Of a DNA stretch of 32,042 nucleotides, positions 11,191 to 31,504 are shown in pieces; the stretch's first letter is position 1, and the number at the start of each line of letters is the position of its first letter. The DNA is taken from assembly GCA_003208835.1 (NCBI GenBank), contig QCVD01000025.1, forward strand, positions 1 through 32,042, read 5' to 3'. This DNA comes from Synechococcus sp. AG-683-C23 (lineage in GTDB: Bacteria > Cyanobacteriota > Cyanobacteriia > PCC-6307 > Cyanobiaceae). Position numbers and translations under genes: made by a program. The notes below the pieces were generated by a model. The model was not told where the DNA came from. It saw only the letters and a program-made list of their open reading frames with translations, and ran no database searches.

Positions 11191-11478
11191 TTACTCTAGC
11201 CATAACCTTTTAAAGATATTTGGGGCTGATTCTCGAGCCTTCATGGATTCTTCTCGAATGAATATAATGCAGGACTTGGATCCATCAAAGGCTTTCTTTT
11301 TGATCACAAGTTCAAAGGCTTGTTGTAAATTCTTGCCTCGGGATAATTCTGCATCCATGATTTTGATCGCCTGTGCTGGATTGCACTGACCCATGGCTGA
11401 AGATGGTTGTCCTGATGAGCCGGAATAGAGCAATGATGTAATCAAGGTTGATCCTAGTAGTCGGCCTAGGCGTGTCAT
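11191..11478 (-). CDS. Small secreted protein of unknown function
   Basis: A 95-residue frame starting at an internal ATG (11478). N-terminal MTRLGRLLGSTLITSLLYSG is basic then hydrophobic, resembling a signal peptide, followed by a soluble part with two cysteines (QCNPAQAI and SKSCIIFI) and a helix-like middle (KNLQQAFELVIKK). The frame is continuous upstream with the C-terminal piece of a decayed porin, so it could be mere read-through, but the character changes abruptly at this Met from barrel-like to signal-like sequence. No good ribosome binding site is seen. I do not recognise the family. It could be a real short gene that lost its separation from the porin remnant. Confidence 0.45.
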   Translation of the reverse strand: MTRLGRLLGSTLITSLLYSGSSGQPSSAMGQCNPAQAIKIMDAELSRGKNLQQAFELVIKKKAFDGSKSCIIFIREESMKARESAPNIFKRLWLE

Positions 11479-13093
11479 GCGCAAGATGCGTAACAGTTTT
11501 TTATGAAAAGATTGGGCAAAAACTACTTTGAATTTGTAGAATTTTTCAAAAGCTAAATGTAATTTTGCAAGACCTTCCAGTTGTTGAAAAGTTTCTCCTC
11601 TAGGAGTGTCTTGTCCCAATGGGCGAGAAAGATAAAACAAGGCTGGGGTCACCGTTGTGGCATCTCTCACGTTCACCTGAAGCCATACCTCCCAAATGAA
11701 CTGGCCATCGTCTGGTGTGTCGTCACCCTTGAGATTGGTGGCGAAGACAGGTTCACCCACGGCGATACCGGCGCTATGGCCATTATTAAAAATGTTGTTC
11801 CATTCCAGCCCTGCCGTCCAGGATTGACTGGTCTGAACATCGCTGTTGTGGGATGAATCACTCAGGTTGATGCCCCACCCCGCTGAGATTGAGGGAAACC
11901 CAGCTTTGATCCAACACTTTCCAGGATCCTCCTAGCTACAGGGTATGGGTCATGCCTTTGCGATTCATCGTCTTTTGGACCAATGGGCTGGCATACGTGA
12001 CGAGATCATTGCCATTTTGGATCGCGGCATAAATCGCGGCAATGGTCCATGCCTCTCGCCCATAACCGATTTGTACCGTCCCAGTGCTCCCAGCCTGATT
12101 GGTGGCAATTCTCCCTTCGCTCGTTGTGCTTCTCGATCCGTTGGCTGCTACATAATTCGCGGCGAGTCGGAAGCCAGTGGGGTCATCCCAGCTGATGCCT
12201 GCTCCAGCGCCCAGGTTTTTGTTGTAAGCGGCTGGTGCACCATTCAGGGTTAGGACATCGAGAACGGCATCACTTGGGTAGAAGCTCGGCCAGATGCCCA
12301 ACATGTCTTCCTGACCCACTCGTGGACCTGCGGTCACAGTGAGCTGCGATCCGATGGGGAAGGAATAAAAAAATTTGTCGAGCGTTAACTGATTGGGCGT
12401 TTCTCCCTCTTGAAATGCGGTTTCCAGGGTGGAGAGTTCTATAGGGCCGGCTCCGCCAAAAACATTGTTGTCACCGTTGAAGTTGCCAGCGCGGAGCACG
12501 CTGGTGAGTTGGTCTTTCCCCGTGAAGCTCGTTCTGAGATTGAGTTGAAGGTCGTTGTTGAAGCTGGTGGCTCCGAATCTTTTGTTGCTGTGTTATGTCA
12601 GAGCATTGGCCGAGCCTCGAAATTGATTGGCACCCATCTCGAACGTCGCGACACCCTTGAGCTTGGTGGTGGTGGAGAACTGAGTTGCTTCCAGTTCGCC
12701 AACGCGAGCTTCGATGCCGTCAACGCGTCCGCGGAGGGTGGCGAGTTCGGTTTCGAATTCTGAGATCAGACGACGCAGTTGATCGGTGACTTCAGTGACG
12801 CGGTCGAGACATGCGTTCAGCAGTGCTGCAGCCTCGTAACGGGTCATCGCCCGGTTGCCACGGAAAGTGCCGTTGGGGTAACCAGCGACGCAGCCGTACT
12901 GCTCAACCAAATTGCTGAGCGCCTGATAGGCCCAGTCGGTTGGATAAACGTCGGACGACTGCGCCGCGACGTCAGAAACGCCATTGATGTTGAGCTCAGC
13001 AGCATTGGAGGCTCTGCTCTTGAGATCAGTCGTCGAGGCGAGAACACTTAGGGCAGCAGAGGCTATGAGTACTCTCCGAATTAATCCCATCAC
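11479..13093 (-). pseudogene. Decayed SLH-OprB outer-membrane porin
   Basis: Remnant of a porin paralogous to the intact one at 22448-23983. The first part (13093 to about 12600) encodes a signal peptide, an SLH domain (YPTDWAYQALSNLVEQYGC) and a coiled coil. An in-frame TAA at 12593-12595 interrupts it; the barrel then continues in the same frame (LRTSFTGKDQL, LRAGNFNGDNN) to a TAG at 11936-11938. Near 11905-11935 the match moves to another frame (AGFPSISAGWGINLSDSS) and runs through the last strands without a recognisable porin stop. So there are at least one nonsense codon, a second stop and one frameshift. A stretch in the N-terminal part is almost identical to the intact gene, suggesting recent gene conversion or recent duplication. 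Confidence 0.85.
12654..12955 (-). repeat. Near-identical porin repeat, copy 1
   Basis: This 302-base stretch inside the porin pseudogene aligns without gaps to 23541-23842 with four mismatches counted by eye. It covers the SLH domain and coiled-coil linker. Sequence outside the segment diverges on both sides, including a roughly 30-base length difference near the signal peptide. The two copies are in the same orientation, 10.9 kb apart. Confidence 0.95.
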
Positions 13094-13184: not shown

Positions 13185-13817
13185 TTAGTCGATTAGTGCC
13201 ACCCAAGCAAATGCAATCCCAATGCCGATCCAGATCCCAGCACCGAGACGTCGTCCTTGCTCTCCAAGGCGATTGATCACGGTTTTCGATAATGAGCAAA
13301 CAAGGGCTAGCAGAACACCTTGGCCAATCAGTAAGCCCAAGAAATAGGTCAGCAGAGGAGTTGGCTCTGCCCCAACGATGGTGCTTCCCAGAAGAAAGCC
13401 ATGCAGTCCGAAGAGTGGCAAAAGCCAGGTAGCTGGTGCAACTGAAAGAGCAATGAACCCCTCAGCCACCAGGCTTAACGACACAAGAGCTTCAGCCCAC
13501 GGCGCCACCGCATCGGGTAGGGGGATGAACTGCGAGATCAGGCTGCCACCCAAGCCAATGGCCAGCATTGGCAGGATCCAAGCAATCGGTCGCTTGAGGC
13601 CGATGAAGCTGATGGCCAGCAGAAAGAGCAAATGATCTGGCCCCAGCAGTGGATGTCCGATACCACTTGCTAGACCTGTCCATCCGGTGAGCTGGCTGCT
13701 GTCCCCCATCCCAAAAGGGTGATGAGCGAAGGCGGGGCTTCCGAGAAGAAGCAGAGGAATAATTCCTAGGGCAGCCCATTTGATCGGCCGCTGGCAGGCC
13801 TTGATTGAAAGAGTCAA
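13185..13817 (-). CDS. HupE/UreJ-family permease, probable cobalt transporter
   Basis: Inner-membrane protein of 210 aa with an N-terminal signal-like segment ending in SPAFAHHPFGMG and about six hydrophobic helices. Family signatures are HHPFGMGD after the signal and GIGHPLLGPDHLLFLLAI with clustered His/Asp likely to bind metal. HupE/UreJ proteins move nickel or cobalt. Because the gene is preceded by a cobalamin riboswitch, cobalt import for B12 synthesis is the best reading. The start is TTG at 13817; it is supported by GAGGA (13825-13829) at good spacing and by the signal peptide beginning there, and no ATG or GTG is available. A terminator follows at 13116-13146. Specificity for Co is inferred from regulation. 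Confidence 0.85.
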   Translation of the reverse strand: MTLSIKACQRPIKWAALGIIPLLLLGSPAFAHHPFGMGDSSQLTGWTGLASGIGHPLLGPDHLLFLLAISFIGLKRPIAWILPMLAIGLGGSLISQFIPLPDAVAPWAEALVSLSLVAEGFIALSVAPATWLLPLFGLHGFLLGSTIVGAEPTPLLTYFLGLLIGQGVLLALVCSLSKTVINRLGEQGRRLGAGIWIGIGIAFAWVALID

Positions 13818-13824
13818 AGGTCGA

Positions 13825-13966
13825 TCCTCGTCGGTTGAAGTTCTGGCGGGCGTTCTGACTGACGACTCTTGAGGAGACGCTTCACAGCTGCGGGACAGCG
13901 ACGGATTTTCACCGCTCTTTCCCCGTTTCCATCAGCAGCTGATCACTGCTGAAACCAGAAATCTCA
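13825..13966 (-). promoter_or_regulatory. Cobalamin (B12) riboswitch
   Basis: On the minus strand the leader contains the B12-aptamer core: GGTGAAAATCCGTCGCTG followed by TCCCGCAGCTGTGA (about 13879-13912), preceded by a GGAAACGGGGAA element and a CAGCAGTGATCAGCTGCTG arm. After the core, TCCTC (13871-13875) is complementary to the ribosome binding site GAGGA (13825-13829) of the hupE-like gene, so B12 binding probably blocks translation. The aptamer is recognised by its box sequences; the switching mechanism is inferred. Confidence 0.92.
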
Positions 13967-14290
13967 CATTAAGGGCAGCTCATGCGTTCGCCATGAATGC
14001 TTCTTAAGCGTTGGCACACGCTTTTCGCTCATTCATTACACGTGGATGTGGAATGCATTAACGGAAGTTTTCGTTGAGAGCACATGCTTTCTCGATTACG
14101 GATTTACTAGCGCCATGCTGAGAATTCAGGGCGACGCTCAGCTGTTGAAAACACTCCTTCTCGAGTCGTTATGCGAGCCCCTGTCTCAATTTCAACACAG
14201 TAAAACTCAAGATCGGGCTCTTATTGAGAATGACTTGCATTTTCAGCAACCCAGCAGTACTGTTGCAACCAATTCTCAATCGCAATAGTT
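13967..14290 (+). other. Intergenic region between riboswitch and crp-like gene
   Basis: A 324-base stretch between divergent transcription units. It must hold the promoters of the riboswitch transcript (minus) and of the CRP-family gene (plus). A frame of 80 codons at 14046-14288 has no recognisable features and is judged spurious. No clear operator or terminator is seen. Confidence 0.5.
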
Positions 14291-14893
14291 GTGACGGCTT
14301 CTGCCTACCGCTTCTTGCCTGACGATTCGGTCGCTCCGATGTCGATGCCTCGCCAGCAGACAGTTTTGCTCGACCCGGCTGGTCGTGAGCAAGCCACTGT
14401 TCTTGAAGTCATGGAAGGGGTTTGTCGTGTGTATTGCCCATGCGAAGAAACCGAGGGGATGACTCTGGCGTTTCTTCAATCTGGTGATCGCCTTCGGACT
14501 GATCGACTGTGTAGTGATGGTGCATGCGTCGAAGCATTGACAGCTCTCAAGTTTCGGAGAGACGCCGTAAGTGCAGATGAGCTTGGTATGGATGCCGTCA
14601 ACGAATGGACGTTGCAGCTGTTGCGCGTTCGCCACCTAGGCCAGGCTGAACAGCGCTTGCATGCTCTGTTGGTTCTCTTAGTGAATCGACTGGGGATGAG
14701 ACGCAGTGATTGTTTTCAACTGCCTTTTCGTTTGACTCACGAACGGTTTGGTGAGCTCATCGGTGCCACTCGTGTGACAACAACTCGTTTGCTGTCCAAA
14801 TGGCGTCAATCGGATCTTGTCGAAATGTCGTCGATCGACCTCACAACGAGGCTTTCTCCATCCCTAGTGGAGTCTTCTCCCCTGACTTTTTGA
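14291..14893 (+). CDS. CRP/FNR-family transcription regulator
   Basis: 200-residue DNA-binding regulator. The N-terminal about 110 residues are a degenerate cyclic-nucleotide-type beta-barrel (VLEVMEGVCRVYCP) without the RSA phosphate-binding motif of cAMP-binding Crp. A dimerisation helix follows (NEWTLQLLRVRHLGQAEQRL). The winged helix-turn-helix is LTHERFGELIGATRVTTTRLLSKWRQSDLV. The start is a GTG; an ATG 16 codons later is an alternative. The small gene at 14899 starts 5 bases after its stop and is likely co-transcribed. It is a paralogue of the regulator at 24343. The effector is unknown; it lies beside iron and B12 genes, which does not prove a role there. Confidence 0.85.
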   Translation: MTASAYRFLPDDSVAPMSMPRQQTVLLDPAGREQATVLEVMEGVCRVYCPCEETEGMTLAFLQSGDRLRTDRLCSDGACVEALTALKFRRDAVSADELGMDAVNEWTLQLLRVRHLGQAEQRLHALLVLLVNRLGMRRSDCFQLPFRLTHERFGELIGATRVTTTRLLSKWRQSDLVEMSSIDLTTRLSPSLVESSPLTF

Positions 14894-15546: not shown

Positions 15547-15777
15547 ATGAGCCCCACTGATAATGTTGTCTTAGAAATATTTGTTGATCACATCGAGGCT
15601 TCGTCGCTTGAGCGTAGGCGCTGGCTCACTCGGGTTAGAACAGCAGGGTTTGATCAAGCTCTTGTGGAGTTTGCAGAGTTGCTGATGGAGCCAGGCAATT
15701 CCTGGCTTGTCAGAAAATGGGACCGAATAGAGAGAGCGATTGTGGAACCCTGCGGACCACAATTCAATCTCAACTGA
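15547..15777 (+). CDS. Small hypothetical protein
   Basis: 76-residue soluble protein with an amphipathic helical look (LERRRWLTRVRTAGFDQALVEFAELL). It is preceded by AGAGGT at suitable distance from the ATG, which supports translation. No domain recognised. It lies upstream of flavodoxin with about 120 bases between, so it is probably separately transcribed. Confidence 0.55.
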   Translation: MSPTDNVVLEIFVDHIEASSLERRRWLTRVRTAGFDQALVEFAELLMEPGNSWLVRKWDRIERAIVEPCGPQFNLN

Positions 15778-15813: not shown

Positions 15814-15895
15814 TAGTAATAATGACTCCCAAATGCATCACACGAAAACAAGGGGGTTGAGGCAAAGGCCAGAATAAATGGGTTCATTTAATGTC

Positions 15896-16405
15896 ATGAC
15901 TTTTACCATTTTTTTTGCGACTTCAACCGGTAAAACGGAAGACGTAGCAGACCGCTTGAAAGAACTTCTTCCAGGTGCAGAAGCTAAAGATGTTGATAAT
16001 CTTGGCTCTTCTGACGAACTTGTTGCGGCTGATGCACTCGTTTGCTGCGTTCCGACATGGAACACAGGCGCTGACGAAGGAAGGTCTGGAACGGCATGGG
16101 ATGATCTTGCGCAAGAGATTCCAAATCTTGATTTCGCCGGCAAATCCGTCGCTATTTTGGGCTTAGGTGATTCCTCTGGCTACTCAGATTTTTTCTGCGA
16201 TGCCATGGAAGAACTCTATACAGCTTTTCTTCAATCTGGTGCAAAGTTAATTGGTAAGGTTCCTACCGCTGGCTATACCTTTGATTCATCGAAGAGCGTT
16301 ATAGATGGAAAATTTTGTGGTCTTCCGATTGATGAAGATAATGAATCTGAGCTGTCAGATCAACGCCTAACAGCTTGGGTTCAACAGATTAATAGTGAGG
16401 CATAA
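15896..16405 (+). CDS. isiB: Flavodoxin (long chain)
   Basis: FMN electron carrier that replaces ferredoxin between photosystem I and its partners under iron limitation. The 169-residue protein has the FMN phosphate loop FFATSTGKTEDVAD at the start, the PTWNTGADEG isoalloxazine loop, and the LGLGDSSGYSDFFCDAM loop; the extra strand loop after about residue 120 makes it a long-chain type. ATG at 15896 gives the family-typical N-terminus; another ATG at 15878 adds six residues. A possible Fur site lies upstream. It converges with a thioredoxin-reductase-like gene 53 bases away. Identification is firm; iron control is inferred. Confidence 0.94.
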   Translation: MTFTIFFATSTGKTEDVADRLKELLPGAEAKDVDNLGSSDELVAADALVCCVPTWNTGADEGRSGTAWDDLAQEIPNLDFAGKSVAILGLGDSSGYSDFFCDAMEELYTAFLQSGAKLIGKVPTAGYTFDSSKSVIDGKFCGLPIDEDNESELSDQRLTAWVQQINSEA

Positions 16406-16427
16406 ACTTACTTTTTGATCGAGAAGA

Positions 16428-16464
16428 CGATAAAGATCTTGTGATTCATCCAAGGTCTTTATCG
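16428..16464. terminator. Hairpin between convergent genes
   Basis: A 13-bp stem (CGATAAAGATCTT with AAGGTCTTTATCG, one G-T pair) with an 11-base loop lies between the flavodoxin stop and the stop of the reductase-like gene, overlapping the latter's last codons. There is no long T tract on either side, so it may end or stabilise both transcripts rather than act as a standard terminator. Confidence 0.55.
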
Positions 16465-17418
16465 GTGAACCCAGTCCACCCGAATTTCCTTGCGCTGGTT
16501 TAAGTATTTGTCTATTGACATTGCAGCAATACATCCATCAGAGCAGGCGACGACGGCTTGCTTGAATGGAGTATTCCTAATATCGCCAATCGCCCAAACA
16601 CCATCAATAGTGGTTTTCATATTTTCATCAACTTGAACCCCACCTTCTTTGTTCAAAGGGATCTGTCCCTGTAAGTATTCAGTAATTGGCATGGATCCAC
16701 TTGAGTAAACGAACACCCCATTGGTTTGTAGTGTTTGCTGCTCTTGCTGTCCACTCTCTAATACCTTGATTTGATTGACTCCTGAGTCATCTCCTTCAAT
16801 CTCCATCAATTGTGTTCGCTTCCACCACTGCACGTTTGGTGAACTCATCAATAGCTCGACACCCTGTGCTGATGATCGGGGCTTGCTTTTCGTGATCCAG
16901 TGGACTTTAGATGCAAACTTGACTAATACCAAAGCTTCATCAATTGCTTCTTGATTAGATCCATAAACAGCAACTTCTTGTTGCTTATAGAAAGCACCGT
17001 CACATGTCGCACAATAACTAACGCCTCTACCCAGGTACTCATTTTCACCGGGCAATGTCGATGCACGTCCCATTGCTCCCGTTGCTAAAACGAGAGTCTT
17101 TCCCCTGAATGTTCCTTCGGGCGTGTACACAATTTTTTTATCAGAGCTTAAATCAATCCCATAGACTTGAGCTTGTTGATAGTCAGCTCCATACTCCACA
17201 GCTTGATCTCGCATCGACTTCAATAGATCACCACCTGATGGGGATCCGCTGACTCCTGGATAATTTGCGATTTGATGGGTGATAGCTAAGGCGCCCACCG
17301 CGGGATTTTTATCAAGTATTTGAGTTTTGATTGATGATCGTGCTGTGTATAGAGCGCACGCACATCCGGCGGGACCTCCGCCAATGATGAGGACGTCTGT
17401 GTCGATGAAATCAGTCAT
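16459..17418 (-). CDS. Thioredoxin-reductase-like flavoprotein without usual NADPH motif
   Basis: 319-residue FAD disulfide oxidoreductase of the low-Mr thioredoxin reductase fold. Seen: FAD motif GGGPAG (13-18), redox pair Cys136-Ala-Thr-Cys139, and the C-terminal FAD motif WAIGDIRNTPFKQAV. The NADPH domain is altered: where GGGxSAxEEA is normal there is VYGSNQEAIDEA (151-162), and the HRRxxxR motif that grips the NADPH 2'-phosphate is replaced by WITKSKPRSS. It therefore resembles pyridine-nucleotide-independent relatives (FFTR, DTR, DDOR groups). Flavodoxin next door is an attractive electron donor, but that is inference. Its start overlaps the stop of the upstream hydrolase gene by 8 bases. 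Confidence 0.85.
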   Translation of the reverse strand: MTDFIDTDVLIIGGGPAGCACALYTARSSIKTQILDKNPAVGALAITHQIANYPGVSGSPSGGDLLKSMRDQAVEYGADYQQAQVYGIDLSSDKKIVYTPEGTFRGKTLVLATGAMGRASTLPGENEYLGRGVSYCATCDGAFYKQQEVAVYGSNQEAIDEALVLVKFASKVHWITKSKPRSSAQGVELLMSSPNVQWWKRTQLMEIEGDDSGVNQIKVLESGQQEQQTLQTNGVFVYSSGSMPITEYLQGQIPLNKEGGVQVDENMKTTIDGVWAIGDIRNTPFKQAVVACSDGCIAAMSIDKYLNQRKEIRVDWVHR

Positions 17419-18196
17419 TTTTGGAGATCTTGGTAGGCAAGTAGTCGTTTTTAATTGTTAAACTCTTATTCATTCCGTCTTCAGGAATCATGTCTAGAAA
17501 TGATTCAATTACATTTGTAGTTTGATTTGCTTGTTGGTATTGGAAGAAATGACGAGCACTTTCCATTGAGCGATAGTGATCACCAGGTTTGAGTTGTTCT
17601 TCCCATCGTGTTTTTGCATTCCGATCAACGACAAAGTCATTGTTCCCATTGATAACAAGGGTGGGGACATCTGATGCCTTAATGCTTCCTAACCTGATCT
17701 GAGAAGCGATAGACCCAAAAATATATTCTTCATCTAAGCATTTGGCGAGAAGTGATGCGAAGATAGGGTATTTTTTGGAGAGATTGCTTCCAAATAGGTG
17801 AGAAGATAGATGAAGTAATATTTTTTCTCGGCTGCATGGAAGCTGGCTTCTCATTTTTAGATAATGAGATGTCCATTGGTTTGTTATTGCAGTATCAGCT
17901 GATAGCAAGGTTGTCGAATGTGCCGCTTCAGGATATTTACATGCAAATAAATGAGCTATAGTTCCACTGATGCCATGCCCCATTAAATGGTATTTTTCCC
18001 TTCCATTATTTATTGTCTCAAGCATTAGTGAATGTATCGTTTCAATACTGCATGCTTCATCTAATTCATGTTGGAAAGACCAACGTTTTATGGGTCTATT
18101 TTTAACTAGCCTTCTTGTCAGCGGTTGATTAAAGCAATGAAGAGTCGGCTGTAGATCAATCCACAGAATCGTCGATAGACTCATTATAAATGCCAT
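17411..18196 (-). CDS. Alpha/beta-hydrolase-fold protein lacking nucleophile Ser
   Basis: 261-residue protein of alpha/beta-hydrolase type. The nucleophile elbow reads LMGHGISGTIAHLFA where active members have GHSxGG; the Ser position is Gly75, with a Ser two residues later. The acid strand (TLVINGNNDFVVD) and the late His (ESARHFFQY) are kept. So it may be inactive as an esterase, or use another chemistry, as in cofactor-free relatives. ATG at 18196 and ATG at 18184 are both possible starts. The stop overlaps the start of the reductase-like gene by 8 bases, implying translational coupling and a joint role. No signal peptide. A 12-bp palindrome lies 19 bases upstream. Confidence 0.75.
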   Translation of the reverse strand: MAFIMSLSTILWIDLQPTLHCFNQPLTRRLVKNRPIKRWSFQHELDEACSIETIHSLMLETINNGREKYHLMGHGISGTIAHLFACKYPEAAHSTTLLSADTAITNQWTSHYLKMRSQLPCSREKILLHLSSHLFGSNLSKKYPIFASLLAKCLDEEYIFGSIASQIRLGSIKASDVPTLVINGNNDFVVDRNAKTRWEEQLKPGDHYRSMESARHFFQYQQANQTTNVIESFLDMIPEDGMNKSLTIKNDYLPTKISKND

Positions 18197-19377: not shown

Positions 19378-19965
19378 TTAATCTTTGAGTGTGGCTGGTT
19401 GATGTTGGCCCTGATAAAGCTCGTTATCGATCACTAATAATGCAGACTTGTCATCTCCTGCAAAGCGGACACGACCCAAGAGATATGCAAACTCATTCTC
19501 TGCCTGAGTTTGTTGATCAACCATGGGATCTAAGAAGACAGTCGTTCTTACATCTGATGCATGTTCGCCAAGTGCATACAGTTGATGCAGGGAGGCTGTG
19601 ATGTCGGCTTCCATCAGAAAAGATGTTGCGAAAACTTCGGCCGGAGATTCCCACACTTGATTCGGTGCCTCAAGCGCTTGTAAATCGACCGATTGTCCAC
19701 GGGCGATTAAATACTCTGCAAATTGTGCGGCGTGGCTATGTTCGCTTTGTGATTCTTCGCGGAAATAGCGAGCAAATCCTCTAAGTTCACGCTCTGCAAA
19801 CCAGATCGCTGCGGCGAAATAGTTGGCATGGGCCTGACGCTCCATGTTGAGATGATGCTGCAACCCAGCGAGTAAATCCTCTGCTATCGGCTCGGCAAGA
19901 GCGCGGCCAGCAGGCCCTGTGAGAACAGTGCTGAGTGCAGTTTTCGCGGCAGTTGATTGGGTCAT
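19378..19965 (-). CDS. Ferritin
   Basis: Iron-storage protein, expected to form a 24-subunit shell that oxidises and stores iron. The 195-residue chain has a four-helix-bundle pattern with ferroxidase ligands in place: Glu42 and Tyr49 in NMERQAHANYF, Glu75 and His78 in SEHSHA, Glu119 in FLMEAD, and a Gln/Glu cluster in QQTQAENEFAYLLGRV. The N-terminus is about 15 residues longer than in many bacterial ferritins. It resembles cyanobacterial ferritins of the SynFtn type. A near-perfect Fur box lies about 90 bases upstream and a terminator follows. No haem-binding Met typical of bacterioferritin is seen. Confidence 0.92.
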   Translation of the reverse strand: MTQSTAAKTALSTVLTGPAGRALAEPIAEDLLAGLQHHLNMERQAHANYFAAAIWFAERELRGFARYFREESQSEHSHAAQFAEYLIARGQSVDLQALEAPNQVWESPAEVFATSFLMEADITASLHQLYALGEHASDVRTTVFLDPMVDQQTQAENEFAYLLGRVRFAGDDKSALLVIDNELYQGQHQPATLKD

Positions 19966-20049
19966 TTTCAGGCTTACTGTCTAACGTTTGAATAACATAA
20001 CTCATTGCATCGCTATTGCATGTCTTAAGTGTTGATTTCACCCCGTTTA

Positions 20050-20119
20050 CTGATAGTCATTATCAACAGATTATCGACACTGATTGTCATTAGCGAATTG
20101 TTGCCGCTAGTTGTCGTTA
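20050..20119. promoter_or_regulatory. Fur box with tandem degenerate repeats before ferritin
   Basis: TGATAGTCATTATCA at 20051-20065 matches the 7-1-7 Fur consensus TGATAATnATTATCA at every position but one. Two weaker copies follow: CTGATTGTCATTA from 20080 and CTAGTTGTCGTTA from 20107, so the core recurs every 27-30 bases. The array fills the gap between the iron-binding-protein stop and the ferritin start, about 85-155 bases before the ferritin ATG. Confidence 0.7.
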
Positions 20120-21130
20120 GCGCCATCCATTATTTGCCATAATTTGAATGGCTAGTTTTTGCGATTCTCCAAGCTTGCTGATTGATACGTTATCTGGATT
20201 GAATCGACCAAATGCCTCTAGTTGGCTCGACGTTCCAAAACCATTTAAAGGATATTCGTATGTTGGTCCAGCAATTGAGGAGCTGCCTTTGGGCGATGTT
20301 AGATAAGTAATCAATGCAATGGCTTCATTTTTGTTTTTGGCAGACTTTGCCATGCCGGCAGCACTAATGTTCACATGGGCAGGATTTGGCATGATTAGCT
20401 TGATTGACTTGGTTAGTTGCTGATCATTTTTTCCACTTGCACCCGCTTGCATCCGGGCTAAGTAATAATGATTAACCACACCTACTGCACACTTTCCCTG
20501 TCCTACAGCTCTGATCAATGATGTATCTCCGCCGAAAAATGGTTGATTGACATTTGCGACCATATTTTTAACCCAGTTTGTTGCATTAGTTTGCCCTTTT
20601 AAGACAATTTGATCTGCCACAAGAGACTGATTATATACGTTTTTGCGTTTGCGAAGGCATAGCTTTCCTCTCAGATTTGTTTTGGCTAGGTCTGCGTATG
20701 TTTTGATGCTATTTGGATCAACGAGCTTTGGATTAGCAATGATTGCTCTCACACGACGCGTGAGGCCAAACCATTGGTTCCCTGGATCTCTATATCGTGC
20801 TGGAACATTCTTTTTGATTTGTTCTGATTGAATGGGCGCTAATAGTCCTTCTTTTGCGGCATTGTTAATACGAGCAGCATCCACAAGTAAAATGACGTCT
20901 GCATTTGAGTTCTTTCCTTCGCGTTTCAGTCTTTCAATTAGAGTGATGCCTGTTGCTTCAATTAATCGAACCTTAATCCCAGTATTTTCGCTAAATTTTT
21001 TAAAAACCTGACGATCAGTGTTGTAGTGCCGACCTGAGTAAACGCGAACTTCTTTGGAGAGGCCAGGTAGTGTGATGGCTAGCGGCATTCCTAATGCCAA
21101 GACAGCCAGCAAAAACGATGATTTACCCAT
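20117..21130 (-). CDS. idiA: Ferric iron ABC transporter, periplasmic binding protein (IdiA/FutA)
   Basis: Substrate-binding protein that captures Fe3+ in the periplasm and hands it to an ABC permease; in cyanobacteria IdiA/FutA also protects photosystem II under iron stress. The 337-residue protein has a signal peptide (MGKSSFLLAVLALGMPL...), the start of the mature domain EVRVYSGRHYNTD, and the iron-binding tyrosines expected in NHYYLARM and GPTYEYPLNG. The ATG at 21130 is preferred to the GTG one codon upstream. No permease or ATPase gene is adjacent, as is common for this family. It is divergent from a PiuC-type gene, 124 bases apart. Confidence 0.93.
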   Translation of the reverse strand: MGKSSFLLAVLALGMPLAITLPGLSKEVRVYSGRHYNTDRQVFKKFSENTGIKVRLIEATGITLIERLKREGKNSNADVILLVDAARINNAAKEGLLAPIQSEQIKKNVPARYRDPGNQWFGLTRRVRAIIANPKLVDPNSIKTYADLAKTNLRGKLCLRKRKNVYNQSLVADQIVLKGQTNATNWVKNMVANVNQPFFGGDTSLIRAVGQGKCAVGVVNHYYLARMQAGASGKNDQQLTKSIKLIMPNPAHVNISAAGMAKSAKNKNEAIALITYLTSPKGSSSIAGPTYEYPLNGFGTSSQLEAFGRFNPDNVSISKLGESQKLAIQIMANNGWR

Positions 21131-21254
21131 CACAGCACTTAGTTTTTAAGATCTTATTGATTGACCGGCTTCAGGTCTGTCGAATGTTACGCCCTTGAGT
21201 GAATCAAATGATACAAGACCTTTTGGCTGTCTTTAGTGGTTTCTTTCTTTCACT

Positions 21255-21923
21255 ATGGATTTTCTGACATCGGAACTTTTCGGCCCTGAACAGACGCGCC
21301 AAATGTACGGTGAATTGAGCAACAGTGAGTCGATATGGCTTGATGGGCGACTCACTGCTGGAGAGCATGCAGCCCTTGTTAAGCACAATCGTCAACTTGA
21401 ACCCTCCTCGGCGTTGGCAACGTCGATTGCCGAGATCGTTGAGCAAACAATCATCGCCAGCCCTCTCCTGAAGAGTTACGCACTGATTCGTAAGGTCCAT
21501 AGCATCCTGATTTCACGAAGCGAAGCAGGAGACGGATATGGATGGCATGTTGATAATCCATTTTCTAAACATGGACGTCGTGATCTTTCTTTTACTCTTT
21601 TTTTGAGTGATCCTTCTGTTTATGATGGGGGAGAACTTACTTTTCAGCTTTTACAGGGTTCGAAAGAGATTCGTCTTCCTGCTGGTCATATCATTCTTTA
21701 TCCGAGCTCATCCTTGCACTGTGTTCAACCGGTCACTCGTGGTGCACGACTGGTCTGTGTTGGTTGGATTGAAAGTTATATTCAATCTTCTGAAGATCGA
21801 TCGATGTTATTTAATTTAGATGCTGGGGCTAAAGGATTGTTGGCTCGGCACGGACGTTCTGACGAACTGGATTTAATCTTTCAATCGTATGCCAATGCTG
21901 TCAGGCGTCTTTCTGGGCGGTAA
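21255..21923 (+). CDS. PKHD-type Fe(II)/2-oxoglutarate dioxygenase (PiuC-like)
   Basis: 222-residue oxygenase of the PKHD hydroxylase group. The iron-binding facial triad is visible as His98, Asp100 (GWHVDNPF) and His155 (SSLHCVQPV), with Arg165 as the likely 2-oxoglutarate contact. The DLSFTLFLSDP and YDGGELTF strands complete the double-stranded beta helix. PiuC-type genes are widespread next to iron uptake genes, and here it is divergent from idiA. The natural substrate is not established. A clear Fur box is not seen in the 124-base shared promoter region. Confidence 0.9.
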   Translation: MDFLTSELFGPEQTRQMYGELSNSESIWLDGRLTAGEHAALVKHNRQLEPSSALATSIAEIVEQTIIASPLLKSYALIRKVHSILISRSEAGDGYGWHVDNPFSKHGRRDLSFTLFLSDPSVYDGGELTFQLLQGSKEIRLPAGHIILYPSSSLHCVQPVTRGARLVCVGWIESYIQSSEDRSMLFNLDAGAKGLLARHGRSDELDLIFQSYANAVRRLSGR

Positions 21924-22447: not shown

Positions 22448-23983
22448 TCAGAATTTGAAGGTTGTTTGTACAAGAGCTCCAAACTTATTAGATCCATCAA
22501 CGTCAACGGTTTGGTTTTTGTCGTAACCGGCATTAGACCAGAACACAGCAGGCTTGATGCTGACGTTGTCTGTGACTTTGTAGTCATACCAGACTTCAAA
22601 CGCGAAGTTTTCGTCTTCTGGATCACTATCACCTTTGACCTCAGTTGCGTAGCTGGAGTAGCTACCAACTGCAGCTCCCAGTCTGTTGCCTTCGATGAAT
22701 ACATCATCCCAGCTCAGACCAACCATCCAGCCGAAGGTGTCTTCGACGGATCCTTTCGCGTCTGCATCAGAAGTACCAAAATCAATACCACCACTAATGG
22801 TTGGTACAAGTCCGGATTCTTCTGGTGACCAGTAGCTACGAAGTCCGAAGACGTTTAAAGCTTCGTCTTGATTCTTGGCCGCTGGTGTTGAATAACCCAT
22901 GGCTGGATCAGAACCGTCTGCACCCTGTTTGTGTGCAAAAAGGCCAGAGATATACCATTTGCGGTTGCCGTAACCGACTTGGCTTAGGAAGTAGCCATCA
23001 GTTGCCGAACCAAACATACCCTTGGTGGAATCACTGCTGGCGCCTTCACCGCCATCAGCAACGTAGTTGGCAGCAACGTTAAAAGCAGCTTCACCCGGAG
23101 CTACGTTTTGACGCCATTGGATACCTGCGCCTTGACCCGTGCTGGCACCCATAAGTGCGCCATAACCACCAAGCTTGAATGCTTTCAAGATTGGTTTGTA
23201 GCGAGTAGGTGTCTCAACCATGTAGTAGTTCTCAACCAAGGCACCAAGGGTTACCTTGAACTCCTCACCAACTGGGAATGAATACCACAGTTTGTCGACT
23301 TTCAGAACATTGTCGCTTGACTTCTGATCCGATAATTGTGAGTCCTTCTCACCCCAAACATTTGACATGTTTCCTGTTCTCAATCTCGTGTAAAGAAGAT
23401 CTTTACCCGTGAATGATGTATTCAGGTTGAGGGTGTAGCGGTAAGACATGCTTACGTTGTCATTTTCGCAGCTGCCTCCATCTTCGTTGCAGTCATTACG
23501 GTCCTCATAAGAGACACCACCAAGGAAGAAGTCGGCTTGTCCCTTGAGCTTGGTGGTGGTGGAGAACTGAGTTGCTTCCAGTTCGCCAACGCGAGCTTCG
23601 ATGCCATCAACGCGTCCGCGGAGGGTGGCGAGTTCGGTTTCGAATTCTGAGATCAAACGACGCAGTTGATCGGTGACTTCAGTGACGCGGTCGAGACATG
23701 CGTTCAGCAGTGCTGCAGCCTCGTAACGGGTCATTGCCCGGTTGCCACGGAAAGTGCCGTTGGGGTAACCAGCGACGCAGCCGTACTGCTCAACCAAATT
23801 GCTGAGCGCCTGATAGGCCCAGTCGGTTGGGTAAACGTCGGAGAATTGGGTAACGCTGGTGACTTGGTCGGCAGAAGCCGCGTAGTCAGAAACGCCGTTG
23901 ATGTTGAGCTCAGCGGCATTGGCGCCGGAGGCCAGAAGGCCTAGGGCAGCAGGAGCCACCAGCAGTTGCTGGAAAAGTTTCAT
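22448..23983 (-). CDS. SLH-domain OprB-type outer-membrane porin
   Basis: 511-residue outer-membrane channel of the cyanobacterial SomA/SomB type. It has a signal peptide ending ASGANA/AEL, an SLH domain (about 45-110: YPTDWAYQALSNLVEQYGC, AMTRYEAAALL) that attaches to cell-wall polymers, a short coiled coil (LRRLISEFETELATLRGRV), then a beta-barrel of alternating strands ending in TTFKF with the terminal Phe needed for outer-membrane insertion. The terminator at 22386-22415 ends it. Its position beside idiA, ferritin and flavodoxin suggests, but does not show, a role in iron or small-solute passage. A decayed paralogue lies at 11479-13093. Confidence 0.92.
   Translation of the reverse strand: MKLFQQLLVAPAALGLLASGANAAELNINGVSDYAASADQVTSVTQFSDVYPTDWAYQALSNLVEQYGCVAGYPNGTFRGNRAMTRYEAAALLNACLDRVTEVTDQLRRLISEFETELATLRGRVDGIEARVGELEATQFSTTTKLKGQADFFLGGVSYEDRNDCNEDGGSCENDNVSMSYRYTLNLNTSFTGKDLLYTRLRTGNMSNVWGEKDSQLSDQKSSDNVLKVDKLWYSFPVGEEFKVTLGALVENYYMVETPTRYKPILKAFKLGGYGALMGASTGQGAGIQWRQNVAPGEAAFNVAANYVADGGEGASSDSTKGMFGSATDGYFLSQVGYGNRKWYISGLFAHKQGADGSDPAMGYSTPAAKNQDEALNVFGLRSYWSPEESGLVPTISGGIDFGTSDADAKGSVEDTFGWMVGLSWDDVFIEGNRLGAAVGSYSSYATEVKGDSDPEDENFAFEVWYDYKVTDNVSIKPAVFWSNAGYDKNQTVDVDGSNKFGALVQTTFKF
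23541..23842 (-). repeat. Near-identical porin repeat, copy 2
   Basis: Second copy of the 302-base stretch described at 12654-12955, in the same orientation, with four mismatches and no gaps. It encodes the SLH domain and coiled coil of the intact porin. Confidence 0.95.
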
Positions 23984-24342: not shown

Positions 24343-24966
24343 TCAAAGTGGAAGGGCAATTCCTGTCGCTGTGGTCGAGATTAATTGGTAATCTTTTACG
24401 ACGAGTTCACCTTTCATTTCGTCGATCGAAATAACCCCTTTCTCTTTCAGTACCCCCAACGTTCGGCTGACTGTCGAACGAGTGGCCCCGATCATTTCGG
24501 CGAGACGTGAATGGGACAGTAAAAATTCAAGTTTGTATCCCTCTAGAGTTCGGATTCCAAGCTTTAGGATTAAGAGCCTGAGCAATGATTTGAGTCGTTC
24601 TTCTGTTTTTATTGGATGTCTTACCTTATAAAGTTGAAAAATCCATTCTTGCAGAAAATCATCACTTGCTGTATAAATTTTTTGTTCGTTGTTGATCTTG
24701 ATTATGGATTCTGCGATGGCTTCGATTTGTATATTTTCAGAATTGGGATGGTGAAAAGTTCCATTGTCTAGAGAGGAAATTAGCGCCACTGTGATTTCTG
24801 GATTGATTTCGCTTGCAACGGTTGATAAGCGAATGATCCCTTGCTCCACAAATATTGTTGTCGACCAGTTGTTATTAGGCCTGCTGAGGATAAGCCTCTG
24901 CCCTGCTTGAAGAACACATGAATCCTGCGGTCTTGAGAGTGATCTATTGCTTGTACTTATTGCCAT
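24343..24966 (-). CDS. CRP/FNR-family transcription regulator
   Basis: 207-residue regulator with an N-terminal effector barrel (TTIFVEQGIIRLSTVAS), a long helix (LQEWIFQLYKVRHPIKTEERL) and a clear helix-turn-helix (LSHSRLAEMIGATRSTVSRTLGVLKEKGVI). The barrel lacks the cAMP phosphate-binding signature, so its effector is unknown. It shares the KVRH/RVRH-x-x-x-x-E-R-L segment and overall layout with the regulator at 14291. It lies on the same strand as, and upstream of, the intact porin, with 359 bases between. Control of the porin is possible but only inferred. Confidence 0.88.
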   Translation of the reverse strand: MAISTSNRSLSRPQDSCVLQAGQRLILSRPNNNWSTTIFVEQGIIRLSTVASEINPEITVALISSLDNGTFHHPNSENIQIEAIAESIIKINNEQKIYTASDDFLQEWIFQLYKVRHPIKTEERLKSLLRLLILKLGIRTLEGYKLEFLLSHSRLAEMIGATRSTVSRTLGVLKEKGVISIDEMKGELVVKDYQLISTTATGIALPL

Positions 24967-28796: not shown

Positions 28797-29200
28797 GGCG
28801 TGTCAGTGCAATGAGTTTATTTTGACGGGCGGAACGCCATTGAACAGAGTTCTTATCAAACAGGACGATTAATTGAGTTGAATTGTATGAAACAAGCTCT
28901 GCCTTTCTTAATTTTGCTGGCCTGCTGGGATTCTACAGAGCCCTGTCACTGACTGGTTAGCGGCAGGATTGAACCTTTGTAACTCCGGTGGCGGAATGGT
29001 CGTGGTCCGCTCCTATGCTTTTTTCAGCGGTCCCCTCTTTGGGGCCCCAGCTTCAGTGCAGTAAAGGGGTTTCGGCTTCCTTTCATGCATTGACGCCCGA
29101 CCATTGTTCCCTTGCGGAGCTGTGTTCGGGGCCCCGACGAGCTTCGGTTCGTCGGAGGGGTGGCCCACCACCTCGATCCCGTCCCTCGAGGAACGACTCG
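28797..29200 (+). other. psaA promoter and leader region
   Basis: A 404-base gap before psaA. It carries at least three hairpins on the plus strand: GCGGA/TCCGC at 28991-29010 followed by a six-T run at 29019-29024; GGTCCCC/GGGGCC at 29029-29046 with a single bulged T; and CCGACGA/TCGTCGG at 29134-29155 about 45 bases before the psaA start. The psaA frame is open back to 28988, but that extension lacks PsaA homology and is taken as leader. Promoter elements were not assigned. Confidence 0.6.
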
Positions 29201-31504
29201 ATGACCATCAGCCCACCTGAACGTGGGAGTGACGCGAAGAGCCAGGTTGAAAAGGTTGACAATCCAGCAACCTTTGAATTGTTCGGCAAGCCCGGACATT
29301 TCGACCGAACTCTCGCGAAGGGTCCCAAAACCACAACTTGGGTTTGGAATCTTCACGCCAACGCTCACGATTTCGACGCTCATACGAGTGACCTCCAAGA
29401 GGTCTCTCGGCGAATCTTCTCAGCTCATTTCGGCCATCTGGCCGTCATCTTCATCTGGCTGAGCGGCGCTTTCTTCCACGGCGCACGCTTTTCCAACTAT
29501 TCCGGATGGCTTGCTGATCCCACCCACGTGAAGCCCAGTGCTCAGGTGGTGTGGCCAATCTTCGGCCAGGAAATCCTGAACGGTGACATGGGAGCCGGTT
29601 TTAACGGCATCCAGATCACTTCAGGTCTCTTCCACGTTTGGCGTGGATGGGGCATCACCAGCGAAACTCAACTCATGGCTTTGGCCATCGGTGCGTTGGT
29701 GATGGCCGGACTCATGCTTAACGCTGGAGTTTTCCATTACCACAAGGCAGCGCCAAAGCTGGAGTGGTTCCAGAACGTGGAGTCCATGCTGAACCACCAC
29801 CTGGCAGGTTTGCTGGGTCTTGGCTCGCTGTCATGGGCAGGGCACCTCATCCATGTGTCCCTCCCTGTCACCAAGTTGATGGATGCCATTGATGCCGGCG
29901 AACCGCTGGTCTTAAACGGCACCACCATCGCCTCGGTGGCTGACATCCCTCTCCCCCATGAGTTCTTTAACCAGGACTTACTGGCACAGCTTTATCCAGG
30001 CATTGGTTCTGGTGTTTCCGCTTTCTTCTCAGGTAACTGGGCCGCTTACGGGGACTTCCTCACCTTCAAAGGTGGGTTGAATCCAGTAACAGGAAGCCTC
30101 TGGATGACCGACATCGCTCACCACCATGTGGCGATTGCTGTCTTGTTCATAGTTGCCGGTCATATGTACCGGACCAACTGGGGCATTGGTCATTCAATTA
30201 AGGAAATTCAGGAGAATCAGAAGGGCGATCCCCTCCTGTTCCCTGCACCGAATGGTCACGATGGGCTCTATGAGTTCATGACCACCTCCTGGCATGCCCA
30301 GTTGGCCGTGAACCTGGCAATGCTTGGTTCGCTGAGCATCATCGTTGCTCAGCACATGTATGCGATGCCTCCTTACGCGTACATGGCGGTTGACTACCCG
30401 ACTCAAATCGGATTGTTCACCCATCACATTTGGATTGGTGGCTTCTTAATTGTTGGTGGAGCGGCCCACGCCGCTATTGCCATGGTTCGTGATTACGACC
30501 CGGCAAAACACATCGACAACGTGCTCGATCGTGTGCTCAAGGCTCGCGATGCGATCATTAGTCACCTCAATTGGGTGTGTATCTGGCTCGGAGCCCACAG
30601 CTTCGGCCTTTACATCCACAACGACACCATGCGTGCCCTGGGACGTCCTCAGGACATGTTCAGCGATAAGGCGATTTCAATTCAGCCAATTTTCGCTCAG
30701 TGGATCCAAAACGCACACGCGGCAGCGGCGGGTAGTACTGCTCCCAACGCTCTTGCTGGTGTGAGTGAAGTGTTTAACGGTTCTGTTGTGGCTGTCGGCG
30801 GAAAAGTCGCAGCTGCTCCAATGCCCTTAGGCACCGCTGACTTCATGGTGCACCACATTCATGCCTTCACGATTCACGTGACGGTTTTGATCCTGCTGAA
30901 GGGCGTTCTGTATGCCCGTAGCTCTCGTCTGATTCCAGACAAGGCAAACCTCGGGTTCCGCTTCTCCTGCGACGGCCCTGGTCGTGGCGGTACATGTCAG
31001 GTGTCGGCTTGGGACCACGTGTTCCTTGGCCTGTTCTGGATGTACAACTCTCTCTCGATTGTTATTTTCCACTTCTCTTGGAAGATGCAAAGCGACATTT
31101 GGGGGACAGTGAATGCGGATGGTTCTGTTGCGCACATCACCAACGGGAACTTCGCTCAGAGCGCCATCACCATCAATGGTTGGTTGCGTGATTTCCTGTG
31201 GGCTCAGGCCGTACAGGTTATCAACAGCTATGGATCGTCCACCAGTGCCTACGGAATCATGTTCCTAGGTGCTCACTTCATCTGGGCTTTCAGCCTGATG
31301 TTCCTGTTCAGTGGCCGCGGCTATTGGCAGGAGTTGATTGAGTCCATTGTTTGGGCCCACAACAAGTTGAAGGTGGCTCCCGCCATCCAGCCCCGTGCTC
31401 TCTCCATCATCCAAGGCCGTGCAGTGGGTGTTGCCCACTACCTCTTGGGTGGTATTGCGACCACTTGGGCTTTCTTCCACGCCCACATTCTTGTGGTCGG
31501 CTGA
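29201..31504 (+). CDS. psaA: Photosystem I P700 apoprotein A1
   Basis: One of the two core subunits of photosystem I in the thylakoid membrane, binding most chlorophyll and the electron-transfer cofactors. The 767-residue protein has eleven hydrophobic helices and the Fx iron-sulfur cysteines at 590 and 599 ([10 protein letters not shown]). The start [11 protein letters not shown] is the conserved PsaA N-terminus and is preceded by GAGGA at 8 bases spacing, so the frame's open extension upstream is discarded. psaB follows after 22 bases, forming the usual psaAB operon. A hairpin-rich leader precedes it. Confidence 0.98.

Follow-up and report, generated by a model that had tools for sequence, protein, structure and literature searches.

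The light-dependent control of carbon fixation passes from ferredoxin to thioredoxin by way of an iron-sulfur enzyme, and to our knowledge the fate of this control after flavodoxin replaces ferredoxin in iron stress has been little tested. The closest described system to the one reported here is the pyridine-nucleotide-independent flavin thioredoxin reductase (FFTR) of Gloeobacter violaceus (structure 5J60; ferredoxin complex 6XTF), which has been shown to work with ferredoxin in an organism devoid of FTR, and in which a Trp of the C-terminal tail stacks on the FAD (PMC12796991). FTR performs the same task as FFTR but is an unrelated [4Fe-4S] heterodimer. FFTR, for which DTR is an older name, has been counted in 95 genomes of cyanobacteria, among them those of some Synechococcus in which FTR is present as well, and all studied Synechococcus are stated to contain FTR (PMC9025218). 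The FFTR of Prochlorococcus belongs to the same family: in the small, FTR-less genomes that we take for Prochlorococcus it is 59-67% identical to the enzyme studied here, and, unlike the latter and its closest relatives, it does not lie beside flavodoxin where this was checked. The DDORs (5N0J/5ODE; Slr0600, 5JRI) are a further point of likeness, having lost the NADPH site and possessing a CxxC and FAD; they have two flavins in each subunit.

At the level of gene clusters, Syn-eCAG_011 unites flavodoxin with a thioredoxin reductase in marine Synechococcus and is common in the low-iron ocean (PMC10119275). The gene composition of the module described below matches it when compared by gene type, and the two are very probably the same flavodoxin-FFTR module. 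Its enzyme is called a plain thioredoxin reductase there, and the section of PMC10119275 describing it mentions neither its identity as an FFTR, nor its electron donor, its hydrolase-like partner or any loss of FTR; the uninformative 'thioredoxin reductase' of ocean surveys would thus gain a precise identity. An iron chelator has been found to raise trxB and isiB transcripts (PMC9723758), the trxB in question not being tied there to this FFTR, and of the Synechococcus strains under comparison in PMC2441476 just four were noted to have isiB, ftrC/ftrV being in all. PMC12796991 mentions flavodoxin a single time, in the title of a reference, and in PMC8229018 it is a control protein unrelated to FFTR. 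A literature search, outside of which most subscription papers lay, showed us no paper that joins FFTR with flavodoxin, names the cluster enzyme an FFTR, puts flavodoxin forward as its donor or assays the two together, and none with the terms 'flavodoxin thioredoxin reductase' or 'flavodoxin-dependent thioredoxin reductase'.

The window, that is, the whole stretch of 32,042 nucleotides from Synechococcus sp. AG-683-C23 that was analysed, carries the following features in and around the module:

14291..14893, plus strand: regulator of the Crp/Fnr type, on the flank of the module in most of the genomes of this genus
15547..15777, plus strand: small conserved protein upstream of flavodoxin, 76 aa here and 51-76 aa in relatives
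15878..16405, plus strand: FldA-type flavodoxin of the long-chain kind, 175 aa; convergent with FFTR and its proposed electron donor
16406..16458, no strand: gap of 53 bases between the flavodoxin and FFTR stop codons
16459..17418, minus strand: FFTR, 319 aa, ATG start; CATC at aa 136-139, tail Trp at aa 316
17411..18196, minus strand: protein resembling alpha/beta hydrolases, its gene overlapping the start of FFTR; as a rule the third member of the module
19378-19965, minus strand: ferritin, iron island on the other flank
20117-21133, minus strand: solute-binding protein, iron island
21255-21923, plus strand: Fe(II)-dependent dioxygenase, iron island
22448-23983, minus strand: iron-uptake porin, same iron island
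24343-24966, minus strand: second Crp/Fnr-type regulator, same iron island

Ordinary thioredoxin reductases bear the NADPH signatures GGGxSAxEEA and HRRxxxR. The protein encoded at 16459-17418 has VYGSNQEAIDEA where the former is expected and ITKSKPRSS in place of the latter, and the NAD(P)H motif GxGxxA/G is absent, with YGSNQEAIDEA at that site; its relatives are alike in the alignment. The first-pass annotation had deduced a lost NADPH site next to an intact FAD motif and redox pair, and both deductions hold: the pyridine-nucleotide-binding residues are not kept, whereas GGGPAG (aa 13-18) and CATC are in place. C136, C139 and G13-G18 are invariant across all 16 aligned FFTRs, as are the tail Trp and, in the GR/KG motif for thioredoxin binding, both G130 and G132; this motif reads GRG at 130-132 in the window protein, and the position of the FF motif is FY, as it also is in the Gloeobacter enzyme. 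W316 aligns with W315, the conserved tail Trp of Gloeobacter FFTR, and CATC together with a tail DW is retained in 46 of the 46 FFTRs compared. The closest solved protein is the Gloeobacter FFTR itself (5J60/6XTF; 445.5 bits, E 9.7e-133, over the whole length), followed by ordinary thioredoxin reductases at 190.2 bits and below. An identity as NADPH-dependent NTR was rejected, the replaced NADPH motifs being joined by a score of 293.7 bits against the 343.45-bit cut-off of TIGR01292 (thioredoxin-disulfide reductase). A DDOR was likewise rejected: the protein scores 61.9 bits to 5n0j/5ode, which PMC8469568 names as DDOR, and 60.9 to 5jri, as opposed to 445.5 to FFTR 5J60, and it keeps the GRG, whereas a DDOR would lack GR/KG. 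Hence, judged by its sequence, the protein is an FFTR, a flavin thioredoxin reductase of the known ferredoxin-dependent family, sharing with its Gloeobacter counterpart 60-62% identity, the CATC, the FAD motif, the Trp tail and the missing NADPH motif; the earlier grouping with FFTR, DTR and DDOR families narrows to the first two, which are one, and loses the third at about 61 bits.

Comparison of a predicted structure with solved ones had been proposed along with that grouping. The model (mean pLDDT 80.5, pTM 0.71) retrieves 5J60 and 6XTF as the top-ranked Foldseek matches at 60-62% identity, but superposes poorly on 5J60 (rmsd 14.8, TM 0.56) and fits many NTRs better (TM up to 0.71). With the Lactococcus enzyme it gives a TM of 0.67 in the FO form and 0.53 in the FR form. 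We read the poor fit to 5J60 as a rotated domain in the model and not as evidence on identity.

The convergent flavodoxin, 53 bases away as first annotated, exceeds the NCBIfam FldA threshold (250.3 bits; cut-off 172), and its bond with FFTR extends far beyond this genome. A survey of 34 genomes of the genus (thresholds of E 1e-60 for FFTR and E 1e-20 for flavodoxin) recovered FFTR in 20 and flavodoxin in the identical 20, with the two genes adjacent and convergent in 20/20, so that the linkage is not a matter of chance; neither was found in the remaining 14, seven of which are incomplete. Restricted to the 19 near-complete genomes, 12 have the pair and 7 do not. A draw of 300 genomes from the family contains FFTR in 137, and every flavodoxin in it with at least 69% identity to that of the window (32/32) stands beside an FFTR: 17 in the same genus, 12 in g34, two in g24 and one in g25, so that three further genera have the pair. 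Below these 32 the identity falls to 62% and lower. The suggestion that the neighbourhood be sought in other marine cyanobacteria was therefore answered strongly in the affirmative. Among named genomes, five of six FFTR loci of at least 62% identity have the pair; four of the five (L036, L038, L039, L041) duplicate the contigs of G014, G181, G148 and G019, which leaves L037 as the one addition, and the Hyella locus (L040) has FFTR and no flavodoxin within its 18.9 kb. The Synechococcus-type flavodoxin-FFTR module of L037 stands in a record whose title is Crocinitomicaceae bacterium RS467, probably a misbinned contig. Carriage of the module by phages was rejected: 74 phage records matched FFTR, all below 60% identity (33-36% in the eight matches listed, with one unlisted record tallied under Microcystis), and four matched flavodoxin at 36-40%.

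The FFTR and flavodoxin form, with the small protein and the hydrolase-like protein, a module that comes and goes as a unit, the small protein being found in 24 of 35 module genomes and without a match in Pfam and NCBIfam scans. Since most genomes of the genus have the module embedded in an iron island, and its state changes often, it might be mere cargo of a flexible island, with adjacency arising from shared transfer and deletion and not from shared function. In all, 18 of 19 module surroundings within the genus include the Crp/Fnr regulator and/or the ferritin, solute-binding and dioxygenase flank, as far as the contigs reach, the other being a 10-kb contig (G019) without the Crp/Fnr regulator and with a phosphatase-like gene upstream, which L037 resembles. 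Yet the island genes remain after the module has left: of the seven near-complete genomes of the genus that lack the module, five (G007, G008, G013, G021, G033) retain the island, its flanks being the same but with no module between them; in the other two (G020, G024) no island surrounds their only related solute-binding gene. Conversely, ten g34 genomes have the flavodoxin, FFTR and hydrolase-like genes (G286, G306, G291, G296, G169, G243, G131, G152, G301, G106), and in their 20-kb stretches the regulator, ferritin, solute-binding, dioxygenase and porin genes searched for were not found; the module alone stays together. In G183 and G195 the phosphatase-like gene alone was found near the module among the neighbours searched, two g24 genomes have a solute-binding protein and ferritin near it in a different arrangement, and in G057 (g25) the hydrolase-like gene was not found beside flavodoxin-FFTR. 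We accordingly regard such hitchhiking as very improbable.

Mapped on a gltB tree of 40 hand-chosen genomes, in which gltB itself may have recombined, the presence of the module requires 10 changes, at least 9 of them forced by well-supported branches. In all eight independent pairs on this tree that differ in FFTR, this flavodoxin changes correspondingly (p 0.008, sign test), and one of the 40 genomes, G102, has FFTR without this flavodoxin. As the two genes touch, one deletion can remove both, and it is joint inheritance that is established by these pairs, not function. In an FFTR tree, a quick one with some long branches, a branch of 100% support separates the 35 module FFTRs from 11 others (nine Prochlorococcus-like genomes, G086 and Hyella), and the two sets share no residue at 14 positions. 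The flavodoxin tree places the Prochlorococcus-like flavodoxins far from the module ones, and four second, unlinked flavodoxins as one weakly supported group inside the latter. A further flavodoxin gene, 57% identical and unlinked, occurs elsewhere in the genome of the window, on a different contig (C26:15921-16424).

With rather more conviction than doubt, we posit that the module constitutes a flavodoxin-driven FFTR serving as an iron-free bypass of ferredoxin and FTR under iron stress. During iron shortage photosystem I would reduce the module flavodoxin, whose hydroquinone would dock at the ferredoxin site of FFTR, two such hydroquinones in turn reducing the FAD in two one-electron steps. 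The FFTR domain would then rotate, allowing the CATC disulfide to be reduced and the electrons to be passed to thioredoxin, which would be kept reduced without either ferredoxin ([2Fe-2S]) or FTR ([4Fe-4S]), and light control of carbon fixation and peroxide defence would be maintained in iron stress. Flavodoxin semiquinone/hydroquinone potentials are about -410 to -450 mV. With the FAD of the Gloeobacter FFTR at -448 mV (PMC12796991), flavodoxin would provide little driving force, and the transfer is feasible by a small margin. For the steps inside FFTR we follow the scheme put forward for the ferredoxin-driven Gloeobacter enzyme (PMC12796991), and flavodoxin is put in the place of ferredoxin on account of the linkage and of the consideration that a low-iron module should not depend on an iron-sulfur donor. 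According to work cited in PMC5322553, flavodoxin can serve FTR as a donor, if a poorer one than ferredoxin, and is therefore able to feed a thioredoxin reductase; by the same token FFTR is not the sole possible route from flavodoxin. Being convergent, flavodoxin and FFTR are not one transcript. A GC-rich hairpin is present in most of 33 flavodoxin-FFTR gaps (37-102 bases), though not clearly in this genome and its nearest three, and is perhaps a shared terminator.

The demonstrated donor of the Gloeobacter FFTR is ferredoxin (PMC12796991), and the same carrier could drive the present enzyme, with flavodoxin neighbouring it only as another iron-free replacement useful under the same conditions. 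FFTR does work without flavodoxin elsewhere, as indicated by Prochlorococcus-like genomes (a label of our own inference), where both genes are at least about 220 kb apart on one contig (n = 23 among the matches listed, judged by eye), and by G058 and G086, where FFTR is present and flavodoxin was not found at E 1e-20 among the matches listed. The genome of the window, moreover, retains both FTR subunits, encoded elsewhere, and an NTRC-like gene (463 aa, with a thioredoxin-like C-terminus by eye), and so differs from Gloeobacter both in this complement and in the paired flavodoxin. Against a ferredoxin donor speak the strict adjacency of flavodoxin and FFTR, which survives changed surroundings, and the expectation from established knowledge that ferredoxin is scarce precisely when the module is useful. 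We therefore hold ferredoxin to be the less probable donor, an unlikely but serious contender.

The proposal of a flavodoxin-driven bypass gains from the history of FTR in these lineages. FTR beta is found in 173 of the 300 family genomes, absences of this gene, of FFTR and of flavodoxin in the draw being taken from the tallies and from a genome's not figuring among the matches listed; among the 196 that are near-complete, 84 have FFTR, 134 have FTR beta and 23 have both (12 of the same genus, 10 of g34, and G148), so that 195 of the 196 possess at least one. All the near-complete genomes without the module that were looked up in the genus of the window (7) and in g34 (11: G066, G206, G217, G227, G235, G251, G258, G264, G270, G276, G281) have FTR beta. 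In two complete g34 genomes with the module, the FTR catalytic gene has decayed at its syntenic site between sufB and sufR, where it is intact in the related G306: G296 (L136, L158) has lost about 175 bases, with a stop counted in the remainder, and G286 (L159) about 250 bases inside the gene, leaving a 41-residue N-terminal remnant; neither genome yielded a second subunit. Neither subunit was found in G057, nor in G015, G016, G017 and G018, which are 53-79% complete; in G015 and G017 sufB and sufR have no FTR gene between them except a 33-residue scrap in G017. The majority of module genomes still retain FTR. Decay of FTR in two module genomes is what would be expected were the module FFTR a working thioredoxin reductase, and suggests that it is one. 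Whether this distinct FFTR group with its own flavodoxin represents a mobile, wholly iron-free module for thioredoxin reduction, able to displace FTR outright, is in our estimate an evenly balanced proposition. We infer g34 and g25 to be kin of Synechococcus, and the FTR-less genomes with unlinked FFTR to be Prochlorococcus-like; if g34 is indeed Synechococcus, the decay in G286 and G296 departs from the statement on FTR in PMC9025218.

The first-pass annotation left the disulfide target open, having seen no thioredoxin gene nearby. That absence stands, as Pfam and/or NCBIfam scans of 24 different window ORFs gave no match to the thioredoxin family; the target itself is less open than it seemed, as FFTR reduces thioredoxin (PMC12796991), the gene for which need not adjoin. 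The same absence, the FTR and NTRC-like gene of this genome and the odd active site of the hydrolase-like protein that is usually upstream of FFTR would all accord with an FFTR dedicated to a non-thioredoxin partner, for instance a peroxiredoxin or indeed the hydrolase-like protein. The canonical hydrolase nucleophile elbow is GHSxGG. In this protein it is GHGISG, with glycine for the nucleophile serine in at least 95% of 34 rows, and from this replacement we suspect that it is perhaps not a hydrolase, or an altered enzyme. The invariance of both CATC cysteines and of G130 and G132 in 16/16 FFTRs, and the FTR decay described above, point instead to thioredoxin as the probable target in this organism, and leave a dedicated partner a highly improbable, nearly negligible prospect. 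If true, the flavodoxin-FFTR pair would be an iron-free answer to iron stress in abundant primary producers of the ocean, placing the light regulation of metabolism in its iron-poor regions on an iron-free track.

Scanning nine regions with a 19-position E. coli Fur consensus, and 300 shuffles of each, gave two Fur-like sites before ferritin (20046-20064 and 20076-20094; 15/19, 1/300 shuffles as good) and one before the Crp/Fnr regulator (14226-14244; 14/19, 3/300). No Fur box emerged ahead of flavodoxin with this consensus, the best site there being 11/19 with 113/300 shuffles as good, and inspection of a flavodoxin leader alignment by eye for an upstream motif yielded no single clear box. 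The Crp/Fnr-type regulator at 14291-14893 is a candidate iron regulator, and a cascade of Fur and then Crp/Fnr around the module is possible.

Several other elements of the window may be recorded. A cobalamin riboswitch (13828-13974, minus strand) precedes a HupE/UreJ-type protein (13185-13817, minus strand), which is perhaps a B12-regulated metal transporter. At 11191-13093 (minus strand) are three short ORFs, the upstream-most of which resembles the start of an iron-uptake porin, the gene possibly being broken here or in the assembly. Finally, at psaA (28988-31504) the Rfam psaA leader RNA (29012-29204) falls within the longest ORF, so that the true psaA start probably lies downstream of the listed GTG.
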